Shown here: one piece after another, positions 4,231 through 24,209 of the stretch
Layout of the letters: every line of letters begins with the position of its first letter
How positions within the stretch are numbered: position 1 is the first letter of the stretch
Origin: Acidobacteriota bacterium
GTDB taxonomy: Bacteria > Acidobacteriota > Vicinamibacteria > Vicinamibacterales > UBA8438
Reading direction: 5' to 3'
NCBI GenBank assembly: GCA_009861545.1
Contig: VXME01000118.1
Span: 1-59,414 of the forward strand
DNA: 59,414 nucleotides
Notes under the pieces: model-generated
Database searches by the model: none
What the model was told of the DNA's origin: nothing
Seen by the model: the letters and a program-made list of their open reading frames with translations, nothing else
Made by a program: the position numbers and the translations under genes

Positions 4231-5568
4231 ATGCACATCATCATCATCGGCGGCGGCGCCATCGGGTATCCGCTGGCGAAGGCGCTCGGTCCGGCGCACG
4301 ACGTCTTCGTGGTCGATTCGGATCCGCTGGTCGGCGAGCGCTTCGCCGACGCCGACGTGGAGTTCGTGGCCGGCAGCGGCGCCAACCCGGACGTGCTGCG
4401 GCGGGCGGGGGTCGCGCGTTGCGAGCTGCTCGTCGCGTCGGCGCAGCTCGACGAGATCAACATCGTCGCCTGCGCGCTCGGCAGCAAGCTGGGCGCGCGG
4501 CGGACGATCTGCTTCGCCACCCGCGAGGACCTGCTCGTCGGCGGCGCCGACGGCCTGCACGGGCACTTCGGCATCGACGAGATCATCTGGCCTGAAGCGG
4601 AGTTGGCCGCCGACATCGAGCGCATCATCATGGCGCCGGGGGCGACCGACGCCGAGGTGTTCGCGGGCGGTCGCATCGAGCTGCTGGAGTACCGGCTCGA
4701 CGCCGCCTCGCCGCTGGTCGGACCGCCGGTGGCGTCGCTCGACCTGCCGGCGGGGGTGGTCATCATCGCGGTGAAGCACGAGCACTCCACCTCGATCCCG
4801 CGCGGCGAGACGCGTCTGGAGCCGGGCGACAAGGTGGTCCTGATGGGCAACCGCGACGGCATGGCGCAGCTCCGCACCCTGATGGCCCCCGGCGCGGGGG
4901 ACGCCGCGTCGCAGCTCGTGACCATCATCGGGGGCGGCGACGTCGGCTACCGCCTGGCGCAGCACCTCGACCGCGCCGACGGCATTCGGCTCTGCGTCAT
5001 CGAGCGGGATCCGGCCCGCGGCGAGCTGCTCGCGGCGACGCTGGGCCGCGCCCTCATCCTCCAGGGGGACGGCACCGACCTGGAGCTGCTGGAGTCGGAG
5101 GACATCGGCCGCAGCGACGTCCTGGTCTCGGTCATCGACAACGACGAGCGCAACCTGCTCGCCTCGCTGCTCGGGCGGCAGCTCGGCGTCGGCAAGGTGA
5201 TTACGCGCGTCAGCAAGTCGTCCAACCACCGCCTGTTCGAGCGGGTCGGCATCGACGTCGCGCTGTCCGCGCGCGGCGCGGCGGTGACGTCGGTGGTCCA
5301 CCAGATCGACAGCGGGCGCGCCAGCCTGCTCGCGATCCTGCAGGAGGGGCAGGCCCGCGTCGTGGAGCTGACCACGCCGGCCGGGTTCCTGCCCACCGCG
5401 GTGAAGGACCTGCGCCTGCCGCGGGATTCCATCATCGGCACCGTGCTGCGCGCCGGCGAGGTCCTCGTGCCGCGCGGCGACGACCGGATAGCGGGAGGCG
5501 ACCGGTTGCTCGTCTGCTGCAAGGACGCCGCCGTCCGGGGCGTGCGCGACCTGTTCGTGCGGGGCTGA
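4231..5568 (+). CDS. trkA: Trk system potassium uptake regulator TrkA
   Basis: This 445-aa cytosolic protein has the full double layout of TrkA: RCK_N, RCK_C, RCK_N, RCK_C. The first dinucleotide-binding fold begins IIIIGGGAIGYPLAKAL with the acidic strand end VVDSD. The second is near residue 230 (TIIGGGDVGYRLAQHL, with CVIERD). TrkA binds NAD(H)/ATP and gates the TrkH channel. trkH starts 10 bp downstream, so the two form an operon. The length matches the family (about 450 aa). Confidence 0.95.
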   Translation: MHIIIIGGGAIGYPLAKALGPAHDVFVVDSDPLVGERFADADVEFVAGSGANPDVLRRAGVARCELLVASAQLDEINIVACALGSKLGARRTICFATREDLLVGGADGLHGHFGIDEIIWPEAELAADIERIIMAPGATDAEVFAGGRIELLEYRLDAASPLVGPPVASLDLPAGVVIIAVKHEHSTSIPRGETRLEPGDKVVLMGNRDGMAQLRTLMAPGAGDAASQLVTIIGGGDVGYRLAQHLDRADGIRLCVIERDPARGELLAATLGRALILQGDGTDLELLESEDIGRSDVLVSVIDNDERNLLASLLGRQLGVGKVITRVSKSSNHRLFERVGIDVALSARGAAVTSVVHQIDSGRASLLAILQEGQARVVELTTPAGFLPTAVKDLRLPRDSIIGTVLRAGEVLVPRGDDRIAGGDRLLVCCKDAAVRGVRDLFVRG

Positions 5569-16544: not shown

Positions 16545-16916
16545 GTGATTCACATCGTCTCTCTGATTGACCGCCGCCGCCGGAAGGGAGAACACCTTCG
16601 GGTGGGGGCGGTCAGATACCCGCCCCGCGGAAAGCGCAAGGAGGAGATCGACGAATACGACGTGCGGCTGCCCGAGCTGGCGCCGAGCAGTGAGTTGCTG
16701 AAGAAGTTCAACGATGACGCTATTTCCTGGGAGCGATTCGTCGGGCGCTATCGCTCGGAGATGAACAAGCCGGAGCGCAAGTACCTGATTCCCCTTTTCG
16801 CGGCGCTCTCGAAGGTGACGAATCTGTCCATCGGCTGTTACTGTCAGGACCAGACGCGATGCCACATGTCGGTTTTGCGCGAGCTTCTGGACGATGCCGG
16901 GGCCGACTTGGCGTAG
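16545..16916 (+). CDS. DUF488 family protein
   Basis: This 123-aa protein starts at GTG 16545 (MIHIVSLIDRRRRKGEHLRV). The DUF488 C-terminus SIGCYCQDQTRCHMSVLRELL is clear; it has the family's conserved Cys and CH signature. The internal RVGAVRYPPRGKR and ISWERFVGRYRSEM are also typical. DUF488 proteins are small cytosolic proteins of unknown biochemistry, often in accessory islands. The next gene (HEPN-like) starts 15 bp downstream in the same direction. Confidence 0.8.
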   Translation: MIHIVSLIDRRRRKGEHLRVGAVRYPPRGKRKEEIDEYDVRLPELAPSSELLKKFNDDAISWERFVGRYRSEMNKPERKYLIPLFAALSKVTNLSIGCYCQDQTRCHMSVLRELLDDAGADLA

Positions 16917-16931
16917 TCCCTACAAGAGTCG

Positions 16932-17681
16932 ATGCACCCGAAGTCCGCGAAGGAACTGGATGCCAAATGGAGGAGTCGCCCGTGGTACCACAGGCCCTCC
17001 GGCGGGCCGGGAGGGCTACCGAATTCCCGCGATGACCTGAACCTCCGGTTGCGCCGCGCCCTGAGCTGGCTTGAGCGCGCCGAGAAGGAGTATGAAACTG
17101 AAGAAGATCTGGACGCTGCGTTCATCTTCCATTGGATAGCCTTCAACGCCCTATATGAGCAGTTCGGTACATCGTCGATCTACAGGGACAAGAAAGAGGA
17201 TGAAAAACGGCGCGAATATGTTGGCAGGATAGTCGCCATCCAGAACTCGAAGAGCACGATCAACTCCATTGTCTGGTCGGTGCTTCGGGACGAGATCCAG
17301 AAGATGCTGGAGAATAGATTCGTGTACGCTCCGTACTGGAGCCATCGCAACAACCCGGCAGAGGCTCGAAACTGGAAGCTACGGTTCGATAGGGATCGTA
17401 AACGAGCGCTGCAGGCGCTCTCGGAGAAACGGACCGGAGACGTCCTCTGCGAGCTATTCTACCGCCTGAACACGCTACGCAATCAACTGCTTCACGGCGG
17501 TGCGACCTGGAAGGGCCGGGTCAACCGAAATCAAGTAGAGCCAGGTGCGAGAATCATGGCACTGCTGGTGCCCAACTTCATCGACGTGATGATCGAGCAG
17601 CCGAATGCCGGCTGGGGCAGTCCGCGCTATCCGGTGGTTCGGGAGGGAGCCCCCTTGTCGGGATGGACAGGCACCGGCTGA
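16932..17681 (+). CDS. HEPN-like protein
   Basis: This 249-aa protein is mostly helical, with a first helical pair (LRRALSWLERAEKEYE, AAFIFHWIAFNALYEQF). The C-terminal LRNQLLHGGATWKG fits the HEPN RNase motif Rx4H (R-N-Q-L-L-H). Such proteins are often RNases in toxin or defence modules. Codon use is noticeably less GC-biased than the core genes, with AGG, ATA and AAA-type codons, which suggests transfer. It follows DUF488 closely, and the frame of the Fic gene opens within its last bases. Confidence 0.65.
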   Translation: MHPKSAKELDAKWRSRPWYHRPSGGPGGLPNSRDDLNLRLRRALSWLERAEKEYETEEDLDAAFIFHWIAFNALYEQFGTSSIYRDKKEDEKRREYVGRIVAIQNSKSTINSIVWSVLRDEIQKMLENRFVYAPYWSHRNNPAEARNWKLRFDRDRKRALQALSEKRTGDVLCELFYRLNTLRNQLLHGGATWKGRVNRNQVEPGARIMALLVPNFIDVMIEQPNAGWGSPRYPVVREGAPLSGWTGTG

Positions 17682-17761
17682 CCCGGTTCAACGAGCTTCA
17701 GAATCCCAACGTTCGCGCCCGGTCTGTGCGCGGCAAATACTCGCTACAATCTCAGCAGATC

Positions 17762-18871
17762 ATGCGGAGAATGTACATCCACGAGCAGCCCGACTGGCCG
17801 CGCCTGTGCTGGGACCGCGAGGCCATAGTCGACGCGTTGGCGAACGTGCGGCACCGGCAGGGTCGTCTCATCGGCCGCATGGAAGCCCTCGGCTTCGATC
17901 TCCGGCGCGAGGCGGTGCTCGGAACGCTGGTCGAGGACGTCGTCAAGAGCAGCGACATCGAGGGAGAGAAGCTCGACGCGGGGCAGGTCCGATCGTCGGT
18001 CGCACGGCGGCTCGGCATGGACGTCGGCGGCACCGGGCAGGCGGACCGCGCCGTCGACGGCGTCGTCGAGATGATGCTCGACGCGACAAGGCGCTTCGAC
18101 CAGCCGCTCACCGCGGAGCGGCTCTGCGACTGGCAGGCGTCGCTGTTTCCCACCGGCCGCAGCGGCATGAGGCGGATCACGGTCGGCGCCTGGCGCAGCA
18201 GTCAGTCCAACCCTATGCAGGTGGTTTCCGGCCCGGCCGGCCGGGAGCGTGTGCACTTCGAGGCCCCGCCCGCGGCCAGACTCGATGCTGAGATGAGAGC
18301 GTTCCTGGACTGGTTCGAGGCACCGCCGGAGACCGACCCGGTGCTCAGAGCCGGTCTGGCCCATCTTCGGTTCGTCACCATCCATCCGTTCGACGATGGC
18401 AACGGGCGCATCGCCCGTGCGGTCGCCGACATGGCGCTGGCCCGCTCGGAGCACAGCTCCCAGCGCTTCTACAGCATGTCGTCGCAAATCCGAGCGGAGC
18501 GCAACGACTACTACGACATCCTCGAGCAGACGCAACGGGGTACGACCGACCTCACCGACTGGATGGACTGGTTCCTGTCTTGCCTCGGCCGCGCCATCGA
18601 CAATGCAAGAACGGCACTGGCCGGCGTGCTGGCCAAAGCTCGTTTCTGGGAACGCGCTGACGGTCTCGCGCTGAGCGAGCGCCAGCGGCTTGTTCTGAAC
18701 CGTTTACTGGAGGGCTTCGAGGGCAAGCTCACGACGACGAAGTGGGCGAGGCTCGCGAAGTGCTCCCAGGACACGGCCCTGCGGGACGTCGCCTTCCTGA
18801 TCGACCACGGTCTCCTCGTCCGCAATCCCGGCGGGGGGCGCAGCACGAGCTACCGACTCGTGGAGGCGTGA
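17762..18871 (+). CDS. Fic family AMPylation protein
   Basis: This 369-aa protein carries the Fic core HPFDDGNGRIARAV (motif HPFx[D/E]GNGRxxR), preceded by the typical RFVTIHPF strand. An N-terminal inhibitory helix with SSDIEG fits the [S/T]xxxE[G/N] motif, so this is a self-inhibited (class II-like) Fic enzyme that would transfer AMP to a target hydroxyl. A winged-helix segment (about 310-365, TTTKWARLAKCSQDTALRDV) closes the protein. The frame opens at 17663, but ATG 17762 starts 11 nt after a TACAAT box. The gene ends in the first copy of a 25-bp tandem repeat. Confidence 0.88.
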   Translation: MRRMYIHEQPDWPRLCWDREAIVDALANVRHRQGRLIGRMEALGFDLRREAVLGTLVEDVVKSSDIEGEKLDAGQVRSSVARRLGMDVGGTGQADRAVDGVVEMMLDATRRFDQPLTAERLCDWQASLFPTGRSGMRRITVGAWRSSQSNPMQVVSGPAGRERVHFEAPPAARLDAEMRAFLDWFEAPPETDPVLRAGLAHLRFVTIHPFDDGNGRIARAVADMALARSEHSSQRFYSMSSQIRAERNDYYDILEQTQRGTTDLTDWMDWFLSCLGRAIDNARTALAGVLAKARFWERADGLALSERQRLVLNRLLEGFEGKLTTTKWARLAKCSQDTALRDVAFLIDHGLLVRNPGGGRSTSYRLVEA

Positions 18872-18920: not shown

Positions 18921-19370
18921 TCAGCCGTCGGGGACTGTTGTCCCCGGTGGGCCGAACCAGTCTTCCAATCTCAAATTGTCGTAGTCACCGAAGTCGCGGG
19001 TGTTGCGGGTGACCAGGGTCAAGTCGTTGGTCGCTGCAATCGCGGCGATCTGGCCATCGACGTACGGGGGCGTCCGGCCGCGGGCGGTCAGCCGCGCGCG
19101 TTCTTCGGCGTGCCACCGGGCCGCTTCGAGATCGTACGGGAGGATCGGCAGCGGGTGGCGCAAGACCTGCTCCAGGTAACGAGTCAGTTGCCGCTTGCGC
19201 GCTCCGACCGGCATCCGCGCCAACCCGTACTCCATCTCGTGCAGGATCGGAACCGCGGCGCACACTTCGTGCCGATGAGCGCGCAAGCGTAGACGGACGC
19301 CGGCGTCCGGGTGCGGACGTGAGGGCTCGGAGAGTACGTTCGTATCCAGCAGGTACTTCAGTCCGGCCAT
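18921..19370 (-). CDS. vapC: VapC-type PIN-domain toxin
   Basis: This 149-aa PIN nuclease starts MAGLKYLLDTNVLSEPSR. The acidic active-site residues are in LLDTN, HEMEYGL, YVDGQIAAIA and TRNTRDF. VapC toxins cut RNA, commonly initiator tRNA or the rRNA sarcin loop. The start overlaps the last 13 bp of the upstream antitoxin gene, the standard coupled toxin-antitoxin layout. Confidence 0.92.
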   Translation of the reverse strand: MAGLKYLLDTNVLSEPSRPHPDAGVRLRLRAHRHEVCAAVPILHEMEYGLARMPVGARKRQLTRYLEQVLRHPLPILPYDLEAARWHAEERARLTARGRTPPYVDGQIAAIAATNDLTLVTRNTRDFGDYDNLRLEDWFGPPGTTVPDG

Positions 19371-19645
19371 GAGAATTCCCGCGGCGGACGCCGGTCACGC
19401 CACCCGTCCACTTCATCCGGGGTCAACTCCGGCCAGTCGAAACCCGCCTGCGCGCGCCAGTCTTCGACCGCCTGCCAGAAATCCTTCTTCGGCTCTCCCG
19501 ATGACAGGCGCTCGTACTCGCCCCTGGAAACGAGGACGGCGACGGGCTTTCCGTGCCGGGTAATGTGCACGGGTTCTCCGTCCTCGGCTTTGTGGATCAA
19601 CCGGGTCAACGTGTTTCGCGCCTTGGCGATGGATACGGTGGACAT
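19358..19645 (-). CDS. vapB: Phd/YefM-family antitoxin
   Basis: This 95-aa protein begins MSTVSIAKARNTLTRLIHKA and has the Phd/YefM fold strands PVHITRHGKPVAVLVSRGEY. Its C-terminal tail, rich in W, D and P, should bind and block the PIN toxin. It binds its own promoter; an inverted repeat lies 16-39 bp upstream of the start. Gene order (antitoxin, then overlapping toxin) is standard. The symbol vapB is by partner; the fold is Phd/YefM. Confidence 0.9.
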   Translation of the reverse strand: MSTVSIAKARNTLTRLIHKAEDGEPVHITRHGKPVAVLVSRGEYERLSSGEPKKDFWQAVEDWRAQAGFDWPELTPDEVDGWRDRRPPREFSWPD

Positions 19646-19684: not shown

Positions 19685-19744
19685 TACGCGAATGTGCCGG
19701 TACATGCCAAGGCAACTGGTCAGACGCCCGCGACCTCCCACGAC

Positions 19745-19796
19745 GCGCCTGAATCGCTGCCTCCCATCCACAACGCAGCGAATGCGAAGTTGTGGC
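19745..19796. repeat. 52-bp direct repeat, copy 1
   Basis: This copy is identical over 52 bp to 19846-19897. Each copy holds an imperfect hairpin (19768-19795 here): outer arms CCACAA / TTGTGG and an inner stem CGCA / TGCG. It looks like an extragenic palindromic element. Confidence 0.9.
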
Positions 19797-19845
19797 GAAG
19801 GTAAACAGCCAAAGGATTCGCGCCCGGAGCGGCGAGAGCCGCGTA

Positions 19846-19897
19846 GCGCCTGAATCGCTGCCTCCCATCCACAACGCAGCGAATGCGAAGTTGTGGC
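19846..19897. repeat. 52-bp direct repeat, copy 2, abutting tRNA-Gln
   Basis: This is the second copy of the 52-bp element, starting 101 bp after the first. Its last four bases coincide with the CCA end and discriminator base of the tRNA-Gln gene, and its hairpin covers 19869-19896. On the minus strand it lies directly downstream of the tRNA and may act in its 3' processing or termination. Confidence 0.9.
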
Positions 19898-19967
19898 TGG
19901 GAGGCAGGGATTCGAACCCCGATTCCACGGTCCAGAGCCGCGTGTCCTACCGTTGAACGACCTCCCA
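19894..19967 (-). tRNA. tRNA-Gln (anticodon CUG)
   Basis: The gene is 74 nt including an encoded CCA. The acceptor arms TGGGAGG and CCTCCCA pair perfectly. The D arm is GTTC-AACGGTA-GGAC. The anticodon stem CGCGG/CCGTG holds the loop CTCTGGA, whose anticodon CTG reads glutamine CAG. The T arm CGGGG-TTCGAAT-CCCTG is canonical. A TATACT -10 lies 30 nt upstream. It is charged by GlnS, also encoded in this window. Confidence 0.96.
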
Positions 19968-19997
19968 GCAAGAAGGCGCAGGTGGGATCAACTACAT

Positions 19998-20003
19998 AGT
20001 ATA
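19998..20003 (-). promoter_or_regulatory. -10 element TATACT for tRNA-Gln
   Basis: TATACT on the minus strand lies 30 nt upstream of the mature tRNA 5' end. No strong -35 hexamer is visible at 16-18 bp. Confidence 0.5.
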
Positions 20004-20057
20004 GCAGGGCTTCGACGACGACGGGCCGCGAGACGCCGGCAGGGGCAGGGCGGTCGA

Positions 20058-20906
20058 TCAGGACCCGCGCGCCGCGAGCTCGATCTCCGCCGCCAGGCTC
20101 GCGGTCACCCCGTCTCCACGGAACGTGCCGGTCACCGGGGCGGCGTCCCGGGGATTGGCGGCGGCGGCGACGGTCACATGCCGGTCCGCCACGGCCAGCC
20201 CCTGGCTGGGGTCGTAGCCGCGCCAGCCCCCGCCGCGCAGGAAGACCTCGCCCCAGGCGTGCAGCTCGGTCGAGTCCGCCTTCTCGCTGTGGGCGTAGCC
20301 GCTGGCGAAGCGCGCCGCGAGTCCCACGGCCCGGCAGCAGGCCACGAAGAGCACGGCCAGATCGCGGCAGGCGCCCCGTCCGGACGCGATTGTCGCCTCG
20401 GGAGCGAGCGGGGGACCTTCCGCACGCGTTTCCCGGCCGAACGCCGCCCGGATGCGCCGGGCGAGGACCAGGGGGAAGCGCGCCGGGTCACGCTGCGACT
20501 CGCTGGCTGCGGCGAGGGCCATCTCGCGCACGGCGGGATGGGCGGCGTCCGGCGAGCGGCGGTACAGCGCGAGCCGGTCGCGGAACTCGGGCGCGTAGGC
20601 GTAGGGCAGCGGCCGGTCCGGTTCGGTGACGAGGAATCGAAACGGGTTGTCGAGCAGGGTATCGACGACGGCGTGCGTGCGAATCGTCAGTCGCGGCCAC
20701 CGGCCCTCGAACCACGCGCGCGTGACGACGTTGCCCTCCGGATCGAGGTTGTCGGTGCGCACGGCCGGCTCGGGATCGATCTCCAGCGCGAAGTCGACGA
20801 GCCGGACCGCGCCGTCGGCCCGCGGCCGCAGCCGGATGACGTGCGGTTCCAGGTAGACGGGGGCGTCGAAGGCGTACGACGTTCGATGGCGGACGGTGAT
20901 TCTCAC
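20058..20906 (-). CDS. Transglutaminase-like cysteine peptidase family protein
   Basis: This 282-aa protein has a bacterial transglutaminase N-terminal beta domain (ITVRHRTSYAFDAPVYLEPHVIRLRP). A TGc domain with a complete triad follows: Cys in GRGACRDLAVLF, His in LHAWGEVFL, Asp in GYDPSQG. The start is GTG 20906, which overlaps the Anbu stop by 4 bp (GTGA); the longer frame to 21014 lies inside Anbu. Transglutaminase-like proteins are standard partners of Anbu. It probably cleaves or forms amide bonds in peptides; the substrate is unknown. Confidence 0.88.
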   Translation of the reverse strand: MRITVRHRTSYAFDAPVYLEPHVIRLRPRADGAVRLVDFALEIDPEPAVRTDNLDPEGNVVTRAWFEGRWPRLTIRTHAVVDTLLDNPFRFLVTEPDRPLPYAYAPEFRDRLALYRRSPDAAHPAVREMALAAASESQRDPARFPLVLARRIRAAFGRETRAEGPPLAPEATIASGRGACRDLAVLFVACCRAVGLAARFASGYAHSEKADSTELHAWGEVFLRGGGWRGYDPSQGLAVADRHVTVAAAANPRDAAPVTGTFRGDGVTASLAAEIELAARGS

Positions 20907-21670
20907 GAGACGTGGGAGACCGGCGCCGGCGGGGCAGTCTCGATCTCGTCGTAGGCGCGGTCGAGCAACTCCCCCGGCGTCTCTTCTATCGCGCGCCGGA
21001 TGCGCTCGCCCCACCAGCGCGAGAGCTGTTCAAGGTCCTGTTTCTGGAAGCGGCGCTCGATGATCCGGAAGGAGTTTCGCCGGTACAGGACCACGTCGAT
21101 GGGGAAATCGACGTCGGCGGCGCTGATTCGCGTCGAGTCGAAGGAGAGGCAGGCGACCTTGAACGCATGCCGCATCGAGTCCTCCGCCCGGAGCGTGCGG
21201 TCGAGGATCGGCTTGCCGTAGCCGACGGATCCGATGACGTGGTAGGGGGTCAGGCGCCCGGTGTCGACCCAGTTCCCTTCCGGATAGAGCAGGTAGAGCT
21301 TCTGCCGCGCGTCGCGCTCCATCTGCCCGCCGATCAGGGTGTGGATGTTGAAGGGAATGCCGCTCTCGTGCAGCGCCGCCTTGTCCTCGTGGGCCACGGC
21401 CCGCACCTGCTCGGCCAGCAGGTTGACGGCCTGGTAGAGGCGCTCGAACGGCTCGTCGCGGCTGGCGCGCTCGGCGAGCCGATCCTCGAAATAGGTCAGG
21501 GTCTTGTCCCGCAGCGACCGCAGTCCGGAGGTCATGACGAAGAAGGTGCCCCGCGGCGGCGAGTACACGTTCACCTTCCGCAGCGTGGTCACCTCGCGGC
21601 CCGACGTGATGAGGGTGTCGGACAGGCCGACGATGCCGTCCTCGACGTTCATCGCGACGCAGTAGGTCAT
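20903..21670 (-). CDS. Anbu (proteasome-type Ntn hydrolase)
   Basis: This 255-aa protein starts MTYCVAMNVEDGIVGLSDT, the Anbu signature, with Thr2 as N-terminal nucleophile, an aspartate in LSDT and a lysine in LRKVNVYS. Anbu is an ancestral proteasome homologue that assembles into open helical rings. Its ATG overlaps the TGA of an alpha-E remnant upstream, and its TGA overlaps the GTG of the transglutaminase. The family operon normally also includes a full alpha-E protein and an ATP-grasp protein, which are not complete here. Confidence 0.9.
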   Translation of the reverse strand: MTYCVAMNVEDGIVGLSDTLITSGREVTTLRKVNVYSPPRGTFFVMTSGLRSLRDKTLTYFEDRLAERASRDEPFERLYQAVNLLAEQVRAVAHEDKAALHESGIPFNIHTLIGGQMERDARQKLYLLYPEGNWVDTGRLTPYHVIGSVGYGKPILDRTLRAEDSMRHAFKVACLSFDSTRISAADVDFPIDVVLYRRNSFRIIERRFQKQDLEQLSRWWGERIRRAIEETPGELLDRAYDEIETAPPAPVSHVS

Positions 21671-21843
21671 CGCAGCGATTCTCCCCGCCAGCGTTGCGCG
21701 AAGAAAGTGTGCGTGATCTCCTTGCCGACGCCGTTGAGCTTGCCCTGAATCGCGTCGAGGAAATCGTGCAGGCCCGAACGAACAACGTCCACGATGTCAG
21801 TATAGTCGAGCGCCGCGACGAGGCGGCCGAGCGCGATCGACCG
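21667..21843 (-). pseudogene. C-terminal remnant of an alpha-E (DUF403) protein
   Basis: On the minus strand, in frame just after the mtgA stop, the sequence reads RSIALGRLVAALDYTDIV, then DVVRSGLHDFLDAIQGKL, then NGVGKEITHTFF, and stops at a TGA overlapping the Anbu ATG. This resembles the end of alpha-E proteins, which sit at this operon position. Only about 58 codons remain; the rest has been replaced by mtgA. A GTG inside could start a 41-aa peptide, but decay is more likely. Confidence 0.6.
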
Positions 21844-22659
21844 TCAGTCGGCGAGCCGCTCCTCGATCAGCGCGACACCGCCGAGCCGGGTCATCTGCGC
21901 GCGGATCCAGGCCTGCCGCCGCCGCACGCTCGGCGACGGATCGTCGGCCCGCCACCGGGACGGCAAGGGCAGGACCGCCGCCAGCAGCGCGGCCTCGTCC
22001 GCGTTCAGCTCCGCCGGGCGCTTGTCGAAGAACCGTTCGCTGGCCGCCGTGATGCCGAAAACGCCCGTCCCGAACTCGGCGACGTTCAGGTACACCTCCA
22101 CGATCCGGCGCTTGCTCCAGCAGAGCTCGATGAGCACCGTGAGATAGGCTTCCAGTCCCTTCCGGAACAGGCTGCGCCCCGGCCACAGGAACAGGTTCTT
22201 GGCGGTCTGCTGGGAGATCGTGCTCGCGCCGCGCAGCCGCTCGCCCTGCAGCGCGTCCCCCAGCGCCATGCGTATGGCTTCGACGTCGAAGCCGTTGTGA
22301 TCCGGGAACTTCTGATCCTCGGAGGCGATGACGGCCAGGGCGGCGTGCGGCGCGATCCCCTCCCAGCTCGTCCAGCGGTAGGGCATGCGCGCCGGGTCTC
22401 CACGCTCCGCCGCGGCGAGCGCGTCCCGCACCATGAACGCGGTGGTCGGAGGCGGCGCCCAGCGCAGGACGAGGACCACCGCGAGCGACGCGCCGAGAGC
22501 GGCGGTGACGAGTAGCAGGCAGGCGCGCCGGAGGCGCGCGAACCAGGACCGGCGGCGGGTCGGGCGGGTGGCCCTGCCCCGCCGCGCCGGGCGTGCGGCC
22601 CGCCGGCGCGGGGGGCCGCCTTTTCGCCGGGGTTGCGTCTCCGTCGGTGGAATCGTCAT
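21844..22659 (-). CDS. mtgA: Monofunctional biosynthetic peptidoglycan transglycosylase
   Basis: This 271-aa protein has an Arg-rich cytosolic N-terminus (about 45 residues), one membrane anchor (ACLLLVTAALGASLAVVLVL) and a GT51 domain. GT51 motifs are IASEDQKFPDHNGFD (catalytic Glu), GASTISQQTAKNLFLWP, RKGLEAYLTVLIE and KRRIVEVYLNVAEFG. It polymerises lipid II into glycan strands and has no transpeptidase domain. It is transcribed away from the MBOAT gene, with a 122-bp divergent gap. Confidence 0.93.
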   Translation of the reverse strand: MTIPPTETQPRRKGGPPRRRAARPARRGRATRPTRRRSWFARLRRACLLLVTAALGASLAVVLVLRWAPPPTTAFMVRDALAAAERGDPARMPYRWTSWEGIAPHAALAVIASEDQKFPDHNGFDVEAIRMALGDALQGERLRGASTISQQTAKNLFLWPGRSLFRKGLEAYLTVLIELCWSKRRIVEVYLNVAEFGTGVFGITAASERFFDKRPAELNADEAALLAAVLPLPSRWRADDPSPSVRRRQAWIRAQMTRLGGVALIEERLAD

Positions 22660-22781
22660 GGACCGGCCGGGGCTCCTCCCGCCGGGAGCACCGATGGTCT
22701 ATGTTACCCGCGGAAACGGGGGCGTCGCGGTCTCGTGTTGCGACGGTCGCCGGTTCCCGGTCAAGATCGGATCACTTCGGC

Positions 22782-24209
22782 ATGCCCTTCGAGTCCGCCC
22801 GTTTCCTCCTCTTCCTGCTCTCCGCGTTGACCGTCTTCTGGGCGCTCCGCCGGTCGCGGCAGGCGCAGAAGCTGCTGCTGATCGCCGCGAGCGTCTGGTT
22901 CTACGGAAGCTACGGCTGGGAGTTCGTGGCGTTGCTCGGCCTCTCCGTCGCCGGCAATCACTTGGCGGCCGGCCTCGTCGCCGCGAGCGCGGGGCCGGGG
23001 CGCGGGCGCTGGCTCGCCGCCGGAGTGACGGCGAATCTCCTGCTGCTGGCGTGGTTCAAGTACTACGTCTTCTTCGCGGAGACGTTCAACGATGCGCTCT
23101 TCGCGCTGGGCGCCGGCGCGCAACTGCAGGTGCCGCAGATCGTCCTGCCGATCGGCATCTCGTTCTACACCTTCCAGGCCATCGCCTACCTGATCGAGGT
23201 GCACCGGGAGTCGGGCCCGAAGGCGAAGAGCCTGGTCGATTTCGCCGTGTTCATGGCGTTCTTTCCCCAGTTGCTGATCGGCCCCATATGCCGGGGACGC
23301 GATCTGCTGCCGCAGATCGAGAGGCCGGCTCCCGCCCGGATCGAGCAGTTCCCGCTCGCCGTCTCGTTGATCCTGTCGGGTCTCTTCAAGCGGATGGTGA
23401 TCGCTTCGCTCCTGTTCAGCTTCGGGGTCAGCCGGATCTTCGACGCGCCCGAGAACTACACGGCCGCCGCGCTGTGGATGGCGGTGTTCGGATACACGGT
23501 GCAGATCTACTGCGATTTCTCGGGCTACGTTGACCTGGTGCGCGGCTGCGCGCTGCTGTTCGGCTTCCGGATTCCCGACAACTTCAACAATCCCTACTCG
23601 GCGGCCAGCGTCGGCGACTACTGGCGGCGCTGGCACATGACCTTCAGCTCGTGGCTGCGGGACTTCATCTACTTCCCGCTCGGCGGCTCCCGCCGCCGGC
23701 GCGGACGCGTCCTCTTCAACCTGTTCGCGACCATGGTCTTCTGCGGTCTCTGGCACGGGGCGACCTGGGGCTACGTCATCTGGGGCGCGTGCCACGGTCT
23801 CGCGCTGGTGCTCTACAAGTACCGGCTCGACGAGCACCGCGCGCGCGGTGAAGACGTGCAGCGCCGGTTGACGGCGACGGAGTGGCTGCGGGGCTGGGCG
23901 TGGACCATGCTCGTCGTCAGCCTGTCGCGCGTCTTCTTCGTGTGCACCGATCTGGCGGTTGCGGTCACGTTCCTGTCGCGGATGTTCACCCCGGGGCTCG
24001 CGGGTGAGGGCTTCGCCCTCCTGTTGCTGCCCGTGACGCTGGCGGGCCTGGGCCTCAACTTCGCCGGAGATGCGATGCGGGATCGGTTCGTGCGGTGGAG
24101 CGGGGCGCTGCCGCTGGCGCTGCGCTGGGCGTTCTGGCTGGCGATGTTCTATCTTCTGCTTGCCGTGCGGCCCTTCGGCGTGCTTCCCAACACCTACTTC
24201 CGCTTTTGA
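22782..24209 (+). CDS. MBOAT family O-acyltransferase (AlgI/PatA-like)
   Basis: This 475-aa multi-pass membrane protein has the AlgI pattern: KYYVFFAE, PIGISFYTFQAIAYLIEV, FFPQLLIGPICRG, and YCDFSGYVDLVRGCALLFG. NFNNPYSAASVGDYWRRWH, LRDFIYFPLGGSRR and FCGLWHGATWGYVIWG carry the conserved catalytic His region. It moves acyl groups across the membrane to a cell-surface polymer such as peptidoglycan or an exopolysaccharide. I chose ATG 22782, where the first helix begins, although the frame is open from 22593. An SGNH protein follows, the usual second half of such systems. Confidence 0.9.
   Translation: MPFESARFLLFLLSALTVFWALRRSRQAQKLLLIAASVWFYGSYGWEFVALLGLSVAGNHLAAGLVAASAGPGRGRWLAAGVTANLLLLAWFKYYVFFAETFNDALFALGAGAQLQVPQIVLPIGISFYTFQAIAYLIEVHRESGPKAKSLVDFAVFMAFFPQLLIGPICRGRDLLPQIERPAPARIEQFPLAVSLILSGLFKRMVIASLLFSFGVSRIFDAPENYTAAALWMAVFGYTVQIYCDFSGYVDLVRGCALLFGFRIPDNFNNPYSAASVGDYWRRWHMTFSSWLRDFIYFPLGGSRRRRGRVLFNLFATMVFCGLWHGATWGYVIWGACHGLALVLYKYRLDEHRARGEDVQRRLTATEWLRGWAWTMLVVSLSRVFFVCTDLAVAVTFLSRMFTPGLAGEGFALLLLPVTLAGLGLNFAGDAMRDRFVRWSGALPLALRWAFWLAMFYLLLAVRPFGVLPNTYFRF

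Follow-up and report, generated by a model that had tools for sequence, protein, structure and literature searches.

The ancestral beta subunit Anbu is known from an operon of four genes in conserved order, as described in the accessible text of PMC6376114, and the same four operon partners are given in that of PMC5666114. In the stretch of DNA analysed here (the window: 59,414 nt, contig C118 of the 6.35 Mb, 174-contig genome G000 of an Acidobacteriota bacterium), Anbu is preceded by only the tail end of the Alpha-E gene, and the locus therefore raises the question of how the first half of the operon was lost and why this particular piece of it is still there. The features that bear on the answer are listed in Table 1.

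Table 1. Features of the Anbu locus, in window coordinates
Feature	Position	Strand	Basis
mtgA, monofunctional peptidoglycan transglycosylase, intact; ancestrally adjacent to the operon, on its upstream side	21844-22659	(-)	TIGR02070
Alpha-E remnant, 58 codons, open frame that continues the mtgA frame immediately past its stop	21670-21843	(-)	PF04168
GACTATACTGA, invariant 11-nt block inside the remnant	21797-21807	(-)	identical in 11/11 Anbu-bearing family genomes
TATACT, proposed -10 hexamer of an internal Anbu promoter	21799-21804	(-)	conservation, tRNA-upstream comparison
GGGGAG, likely Anbu ribosome-binding site, 10 nt before the ATG	21681-21686	(-)	inspection
Anbu (ancestral beta subunit), 255 aa, intact	20903-21670	(-)	similarity to solved Anbu sequences
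Transglutaminase-like protein, 282 aa, GTG start	20058-20906	(-)	PF08379, PF01841

The initial annotation described Anbu and the transglutaminase-like gene as intact and coupled, and this description stands, since both genes are intact and the Anbu stop codon overlaps the GTG start of the second gene in the sequence GTGA (20903-20906). The Anbu product matches the solved structures 5loy, 5nyj, 5nyf, 5nyw and 5lox (best E 9.4e-39, residues 2-232), and a profile search of Pfam and NCBIfam assigned it to no family at E 0.001. Residues T2, D18 and K32 of this protein (P0001) are invariant in all 13 aligned sequences and were matched, by inspection of the numbering, to the Anbu residues named in the available part of PMC6376114, namely the Thr after the initiator Met, Asp17 and Lys32(33). 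The dN/dS of Anbu against its congeners is 0.042-0.092, and a site of the GGAG/GGGAG type can be recognised by inspection at the same place before Anbu in all four members of the genus. Upstream, mtgA scores 251.2 bits against TIGR02070 (cut-off 182.65) in an NCBIfam profile search. Compared with the known operon, the transglutaminase is thus found beside Anbu, the ATP-grasp gene is absent and Alpha-E is truncated.

Elsewhere in the window, adjacent PIN-domain and Phd/YefM antitoxin genes (18921-19645) are likely to form a toxin-antitoxin pair, with a Fic/DUF4172 gene (17663-18871) and a DUF488 gene (16545-16916) nearby. Positions 19738-19796 and 19839-19897 hold a 59-nt direct repeat, the copies being 95% identical and 101 bp apart, the second of which reaches 4 nt into the 3' end of a tRNA-Gln gene.

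The reading that some 58 C-terminal codons of Alpha-E survive, still ending in an ATGA overlap with Anbu, proved accurate. The frame is bounded by the mtgA stop codon (21844-21846) and its own TGA (21667-21669), which overlaps the Anbu ATG at 21667-21670, and it aligns with the Alpha-E family: its residues 5-48 match positions 252-294 of the 294 positions of the PF04168 profile (E 2.1e-6, 28.1 bits, cut-off 20.8), positions 1-251 being missing. A genome-wide PF04168 search that read through stops extended the match to positions 243-294 (E 1.7e-5), across the mtgA stop codon. Over 55 residues the remnant is 91% and 93% identical to the C-terminus of the intact Alpha-E of the congeners G003 and G002, respectively, so that the match is not due to chance; the codons just downstream of the mtgA stop belong to the junction, and their origin is uncertain. 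By comparison, the nine intact Alpha-E genes of the family encode 321 aa. The remnant has a dN/dS of 0.10-0.16, the intact pair one of 0.076; the former value allows recent loss with little time to decay and selection alike.

Synteny in relatives identifies the piece as a true remnant of a complete operon. Our sample of the family comprised 28 genomes, 11 of which have an Anbu match, and ATP-grasp, Alpha-E, Anbu and transglutaminase follow one another in this order in nine of the 11 (seven others besides the congeners G002 and G003), the exceptions being G000 itself and its congener G001. G002 has intact copies of mtgA, ATP-grasp, Alpha-E, Anbu and transglutaminase, arranged in this sequence, and the mtgA stop codon (5482-5484) and the ATP-grasp ATG (5493) make the first two immediate neighbours; mtgA also lies upstream of the operon in G003, G001 and G005. 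The initial annotation had called mtgA an unrelated gene abutting the remnant. It does adjoin the remnant directly, but the arrangement in G002 led us to reject the idea that it is a newly arrived neighbour. Of the congeners, G002 is the nearest to G000: the C42-type paralogues described below are 94-96% identical between the two, against 80-89% for G001 and G003, and the dS of Anbu from G000 is 0.307 for G002 compared with 0.404 and 0.489 for the other congeners. Since the closest congener retains the full operon, the deletion in G000 took place after their split, and G000 and G001 lost the two genes independently of each other. That the G001 loss is separate also follows from what stands between mtgA and the Alpha-E leftover in that genome, an oppositely oriented gene that encodes an FkbM methyltransferase domain (L017 5370-6410, minus strand; it carries PF05050 and DUF4214).

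The comparison with G002 shows a deletion of ~2.2 kb, which removed ATP-grasp and most (about 80%) of Alpha-E from G000. Flanking the deleted stretch in G002 are the two imperfectly matching copies of a short repeat, GCGGCTCGCCGACTG on the mtgA side and GCGGTTCGCCAATG in Alpha-E, which would fit recombination. The suggestion that the locus reveals which members of the operon are dispensable was borne out to the extent that the Anbu and transglutaminase half persists without the other half, the loss having occurred twice in the genus. Beyond the family, among the best 80 of 342 Anbu loci, L048, L049 and L051 lack Alpha-E and ATP-grasp in a stretch of up to 4 kb upstream, so Anbu without an adjacent Alpha-E occurs there too; in the same set L107 has only the first 257 Alpha-E positions, and contig ends interrupt L088 and L089.

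We considered whether the missing pair is to be found elsewhere in the genome, as the initial annotation had envisaged. A full ATP-grasp/Alpha-E pair does exist on contig C42 of G000, with the same Pfam families as in the Anbu operon (PF14403/PF04174 and PF04168) in adjacent genes, but it is not a relocated copy. A second pair is present in all 11 Anbu-bearing family genomes, those with intact operons as well as both remnant genomes, and is of the C42 type in the four members of the genus. Because it coexists with intact operons, relocation of the lost pair was rejected and the C42 pair is regarded as an old paralogue, different from its counterpart in the Anbu operon in that the Alpha-E proteins are only 28-29% identical over the aligned part. 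In the 12-14 kb around the C42-type pair neither Anbu nor transglutaminase gave a match, and no other Anbu-type ATP-grasp or Alpha-E was found in G000. The C42 paralogues may cover for the deleted pair. An open frame after the C42 pair (L001 2573-3853) presumably encodes an ammonium transporter. This is of interest because Anbu is reported, in the accessible portions of PMC6376114 and PMC5666114, to be up under nitrogen limitation. The converse loss, an Anbu-type ATP-grasp/Alpha-E pair in a genome that has no Anbu match, was seen in two genera of the family (L169 in G019, L170 in G013, L171 in G027 and L172 in G025). In the three-contig genome G006, Alpha-E and ATP-grasp matches are split into several frames (C2:115075-117309 and C1:5331596-5332152) and are apparently decaying copies.

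The part of the remnant that stands out is a short block of DNA. The 11-nt sequence GACTATACTGA occurs once in the 6.35 Mb genome, and GACTATACT, on the Anbu-sense strand of the remnant, is present in all 11 Anbu-bearing genomes of the family, including both in which Alpha-E is destroyed. The block encodes Asp-Tyr-Thr-Asp, and in an alignment of the DNA before Anbu the codons around it vary. Such constancy is unusual for these genes, which have a third-position GC of 0.87-0.95 in the nine intact copies of Alpha-E: among 52 invariant codon columns of Alpha-E, the only ones ending in A or T are TAT277 and ACT278, and among all 173 invariant columns of the four operon genes in nine species (81+52+29+11) these same two, both in the block, are again the only ones, which indicates a constraint on the DNA beyond that on the protein. 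The two codons spell TATACT, the sole coding-strand TANNNT hexamer common to all nine species over the four operon genes; it occurs exactly once per Alpha-E gene, at nt 829 in all nine, and the GA that flanks it is also conserved in the family.

As a control we used the Alpha-E orthologues of the four family genomes that have no Anbu match (G013, G019, G025 and G027), which are 68-69% identical to the nearest Anbu-linked Alpha-E. Neither TATACT nor GACTATACT is present in any of the four, the corresponding codons being TAC ACC, TAT ACC, TAC AGC and TAC AGT, even though Tyr, followed by Thr or Ser, is retained in each of them. In these controls, 139 of 170 same-residue cells retain the invariant codon where it ends in G/C, compared with one of six for the two A/T-ending columns (Fisher p 0.0014, a rough figure given that the species are related and kinship was ignored). 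In genomes without Anbu the hexamer is thus lost while the amino acids are kept, and the constraint follows the downstream Anbu gene (11 of 11 against none of four within the family) rather than the Alpha-E protein.

Outside the family the block is found at the same codons in six of nine further acidobacterial loci (L037-L041 and L043). Their Alpha-E is 55-60% identical to that of G002, only 3-5 of the 16-18 comparable A/T-ending codons of G002 survive in them, and GACTATACT holds their only TANNNT within 300 nt before Anbu. The two distant loci L177 and L178, the only new ones from a phylum-wide search for Anbu (396 genomes, E 1e-70 or better), bring the total to six of 11 acidobacterial loci with Alpha-E before Anbu; the block is therefore not universal. 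The five that lack it differ in what they have instead: a gap of ~265 nt between the genes with other TANNNT in L042, no TANNNT within 300 nt in L044, TATTCT at the homologous place in L066, only a TACTGT at -37 in L177, and TAC ACC at the homologous codons in L178. Two order-level relatives with Anbu and no adjacent Alpha-E (L014 and L015) also lack GACTATACT; upstream of Anbu they share GTATGAT, in which the -10-like TATGAT starts 44-46 nt before the start codon. Outside the Acidobacteriota, none of the loci compared has GACTATACT at these codons, and L086 has one chance match elsewhere. These comparisons used the best 80 of 342 Anbu relatives, in which L029-L036 and L046 are family genomes already counted and were not counted twice.

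Most likely, TATACT is the -10 box of a promoter for Anbu that lies within the Alpha-E gene, and transcripts from it are predicted to start near 21792, some 120 nt upstream of the Anbu ATG. To see what kind of hexamer this genome places in front of genes, we took the 70 nt preceding tRNA genes, 32 stretches in all (30 loci from 44 tRNA matches and the two tRNA genes of the window, some of them in tRNA clusters). TANNNT is present in 20 of the 32, compared with 7.8% of 70-mers drawn at random from the same DNA, and TATACT itself in two of the 32 compared with 0.16%, those two being upstream of the tRNA-Gln gene in the window and of a tRNA-Val gene of G000. Assuming that the hexamers upstream of tRNA genes serve as promoters, TATACT is thus of a type that the genome uses. 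A promoter scan of positions 19800-22900, and inspection by eye, revealed no -35 hexamer at 16-18 nt from TATACT, and no TG extension was seen at it; by inspection, -35 boxes are hard to see upstream of the tRNA genes too. In G001 only about 12 nt of sequence homologous to Alpha-E precede TATACT, so that any -35 region there would be new sequence.

The initial annotation raised, as one possibility, a remnant that now serves as a leader for coupled translation of Anbu. The frame is indeed open and ends in ATGA, and for a variant in which a leaderless peptide of 41 codons is made, the only in-frame ATG, GTG or TTG of the remnant, a GTG at codon 18 (21790-21792), coincides with the expected +1. 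This GTG is not shared, relatives having GTC or another codon there, inspection found no ribosome-binding site before it, and Anbu has a GGGGAG of its own. In G001, moreover, one inserted base puts the remnant out of frame, and over 41 codons its dN/dS has risen to 0.26-0.39, compared with 0.07 for the intact pair, with the block unchanged. We therefore rejected a leader peptide as the main reading, what is invariant being 9-11 nt of DNA and not a peptide, and we consider translation of the remnant, in either form, highly improbable. The same insertion in G001 brings the remnant into frame with Anbu in a 333-aa open frame (L017 6508-7509, plus strand) that extends Anbu before its Thr and is probably not used.

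Passive debris of a recent deletion, its extent accidental and Anbu read from the mtgA promoter, strikes us as rather unlikely. The low dN/dS of the remnant, close to that of the intact pair, would fit the short time since the loss, mtgA lies directly upstream, no terminator-like site was found when one was looked for between mtgA and Anbu, and the GCGGCTCGCCGACTG/GCGGTTCGCCAATG repeat means that the end points may have been set by recombination. Such an account nevertheless leaves unexplained the conservation of TATACT as DNA in intact genes and its absence from the orthologues without Anbu, as well as the unchanged block in the relaxed and separately formed remnant of G001. A somewhat better case, though still an unlikely one, can be made for the block as another kind of cis element, be it an operator for an Anbu regulator, an RNA processing site or an antisense promoter. 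The missing -35 is compatible with it, the GA beside the hexamer is conserved beyond the hexamer itself, and on the opposite strand the block reads TATAGT, which is also -10-like and also common to all nine species. The forward reading is favoured because the third base of ACT is fixed, which TATACT needs and TATAGT does not; G019, which has no Anbu, keeps TATAGT and loses TATACT; and the block resembles the hexamers enriched upstream of the tRNA genes of G000. An assembly artefact, for which the 174 contigs might speak, would concern the deletion in G000 only and be compatible with a promoter in the block; we give it very little credence, given flanks syntenic with G002, a junction repeat that is short and imperfect, a genome that holds no other Anbu-type ATP-grasp or Alpha-E, and the separate loss in G001.

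Overall, we consider it probable that a deletion left the Alpha-E end in place as promoter DNA of Anbu. By comparison with G002, the deletion runs from the mtgA stop codon to about Alpha-E codon 264 and took out ATP-grasp and most of Alpha-E; judging from its conservation, the surviving end would have been kept as DNA and not as protein, holding the -10 box TATACT of a promoter that transcribes Anbu and the transglutaminase gene as well as the ribosome-binding site of Anbu. With a promoter of its own for the Anbu and transglutaminase half, the ATP-grasp and Alpha-E half (the amide-ligase half) could be lost without silencing the rest, as has happened twice in the genus, and the loss may be masked by the paralogous pair on C42. 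Two losses are too small a number to establish that the block-bearing piece was retained by selection. The wider proposition, that in two acidobacterial lineages an old promoter within Alpha-E codons drives Anbu and transglutaminase, that the operon consists of two separable modules and that the last ~50 codons persist as a promoter, is one on which we are evenly divided.

What the two natural deletions do reveal is that Anbu and transglutaminase can be kept without an ATP-grasp and Alpha-E of their own. The conserved block suggests that the halves of the operon are expressed separately, which amounts to a testable proposal on which of the proteins work together; the accessible text of PMC6376114 reports that neither peptidase activity nor a specific interaction among the operon proteins was detected. 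The remnant also offers a clean candidate case of part of a gene outliving the rest as a regulatory element. The available parts of PMC6376114 and PMC5666114 make no mention of an internal Anbu promoter, and a search of the open literature returned none.

Set against the known Anbu operon, the locus has the same intact and overlapping Anbu and transglutaminase genes and a part of Alpha-E at the expected place and in the expected frame, and it differs in the deletion of ATP-grasp and about 80% of Alpha-E. Intragenic promoters inside operon genes are already known, as the accessible parts of PMC9600179 and PMC8547445 describe. Like these, the proposed Anbu promoter comprises a -10-like hexamer within one gene and is conserved at the level of DNA when the downstream gene is present; unlike them, it has no recognised -35 or TG extension, its start is a predicted one, and it came to light through its survival after the loss of the gene that hosted it.
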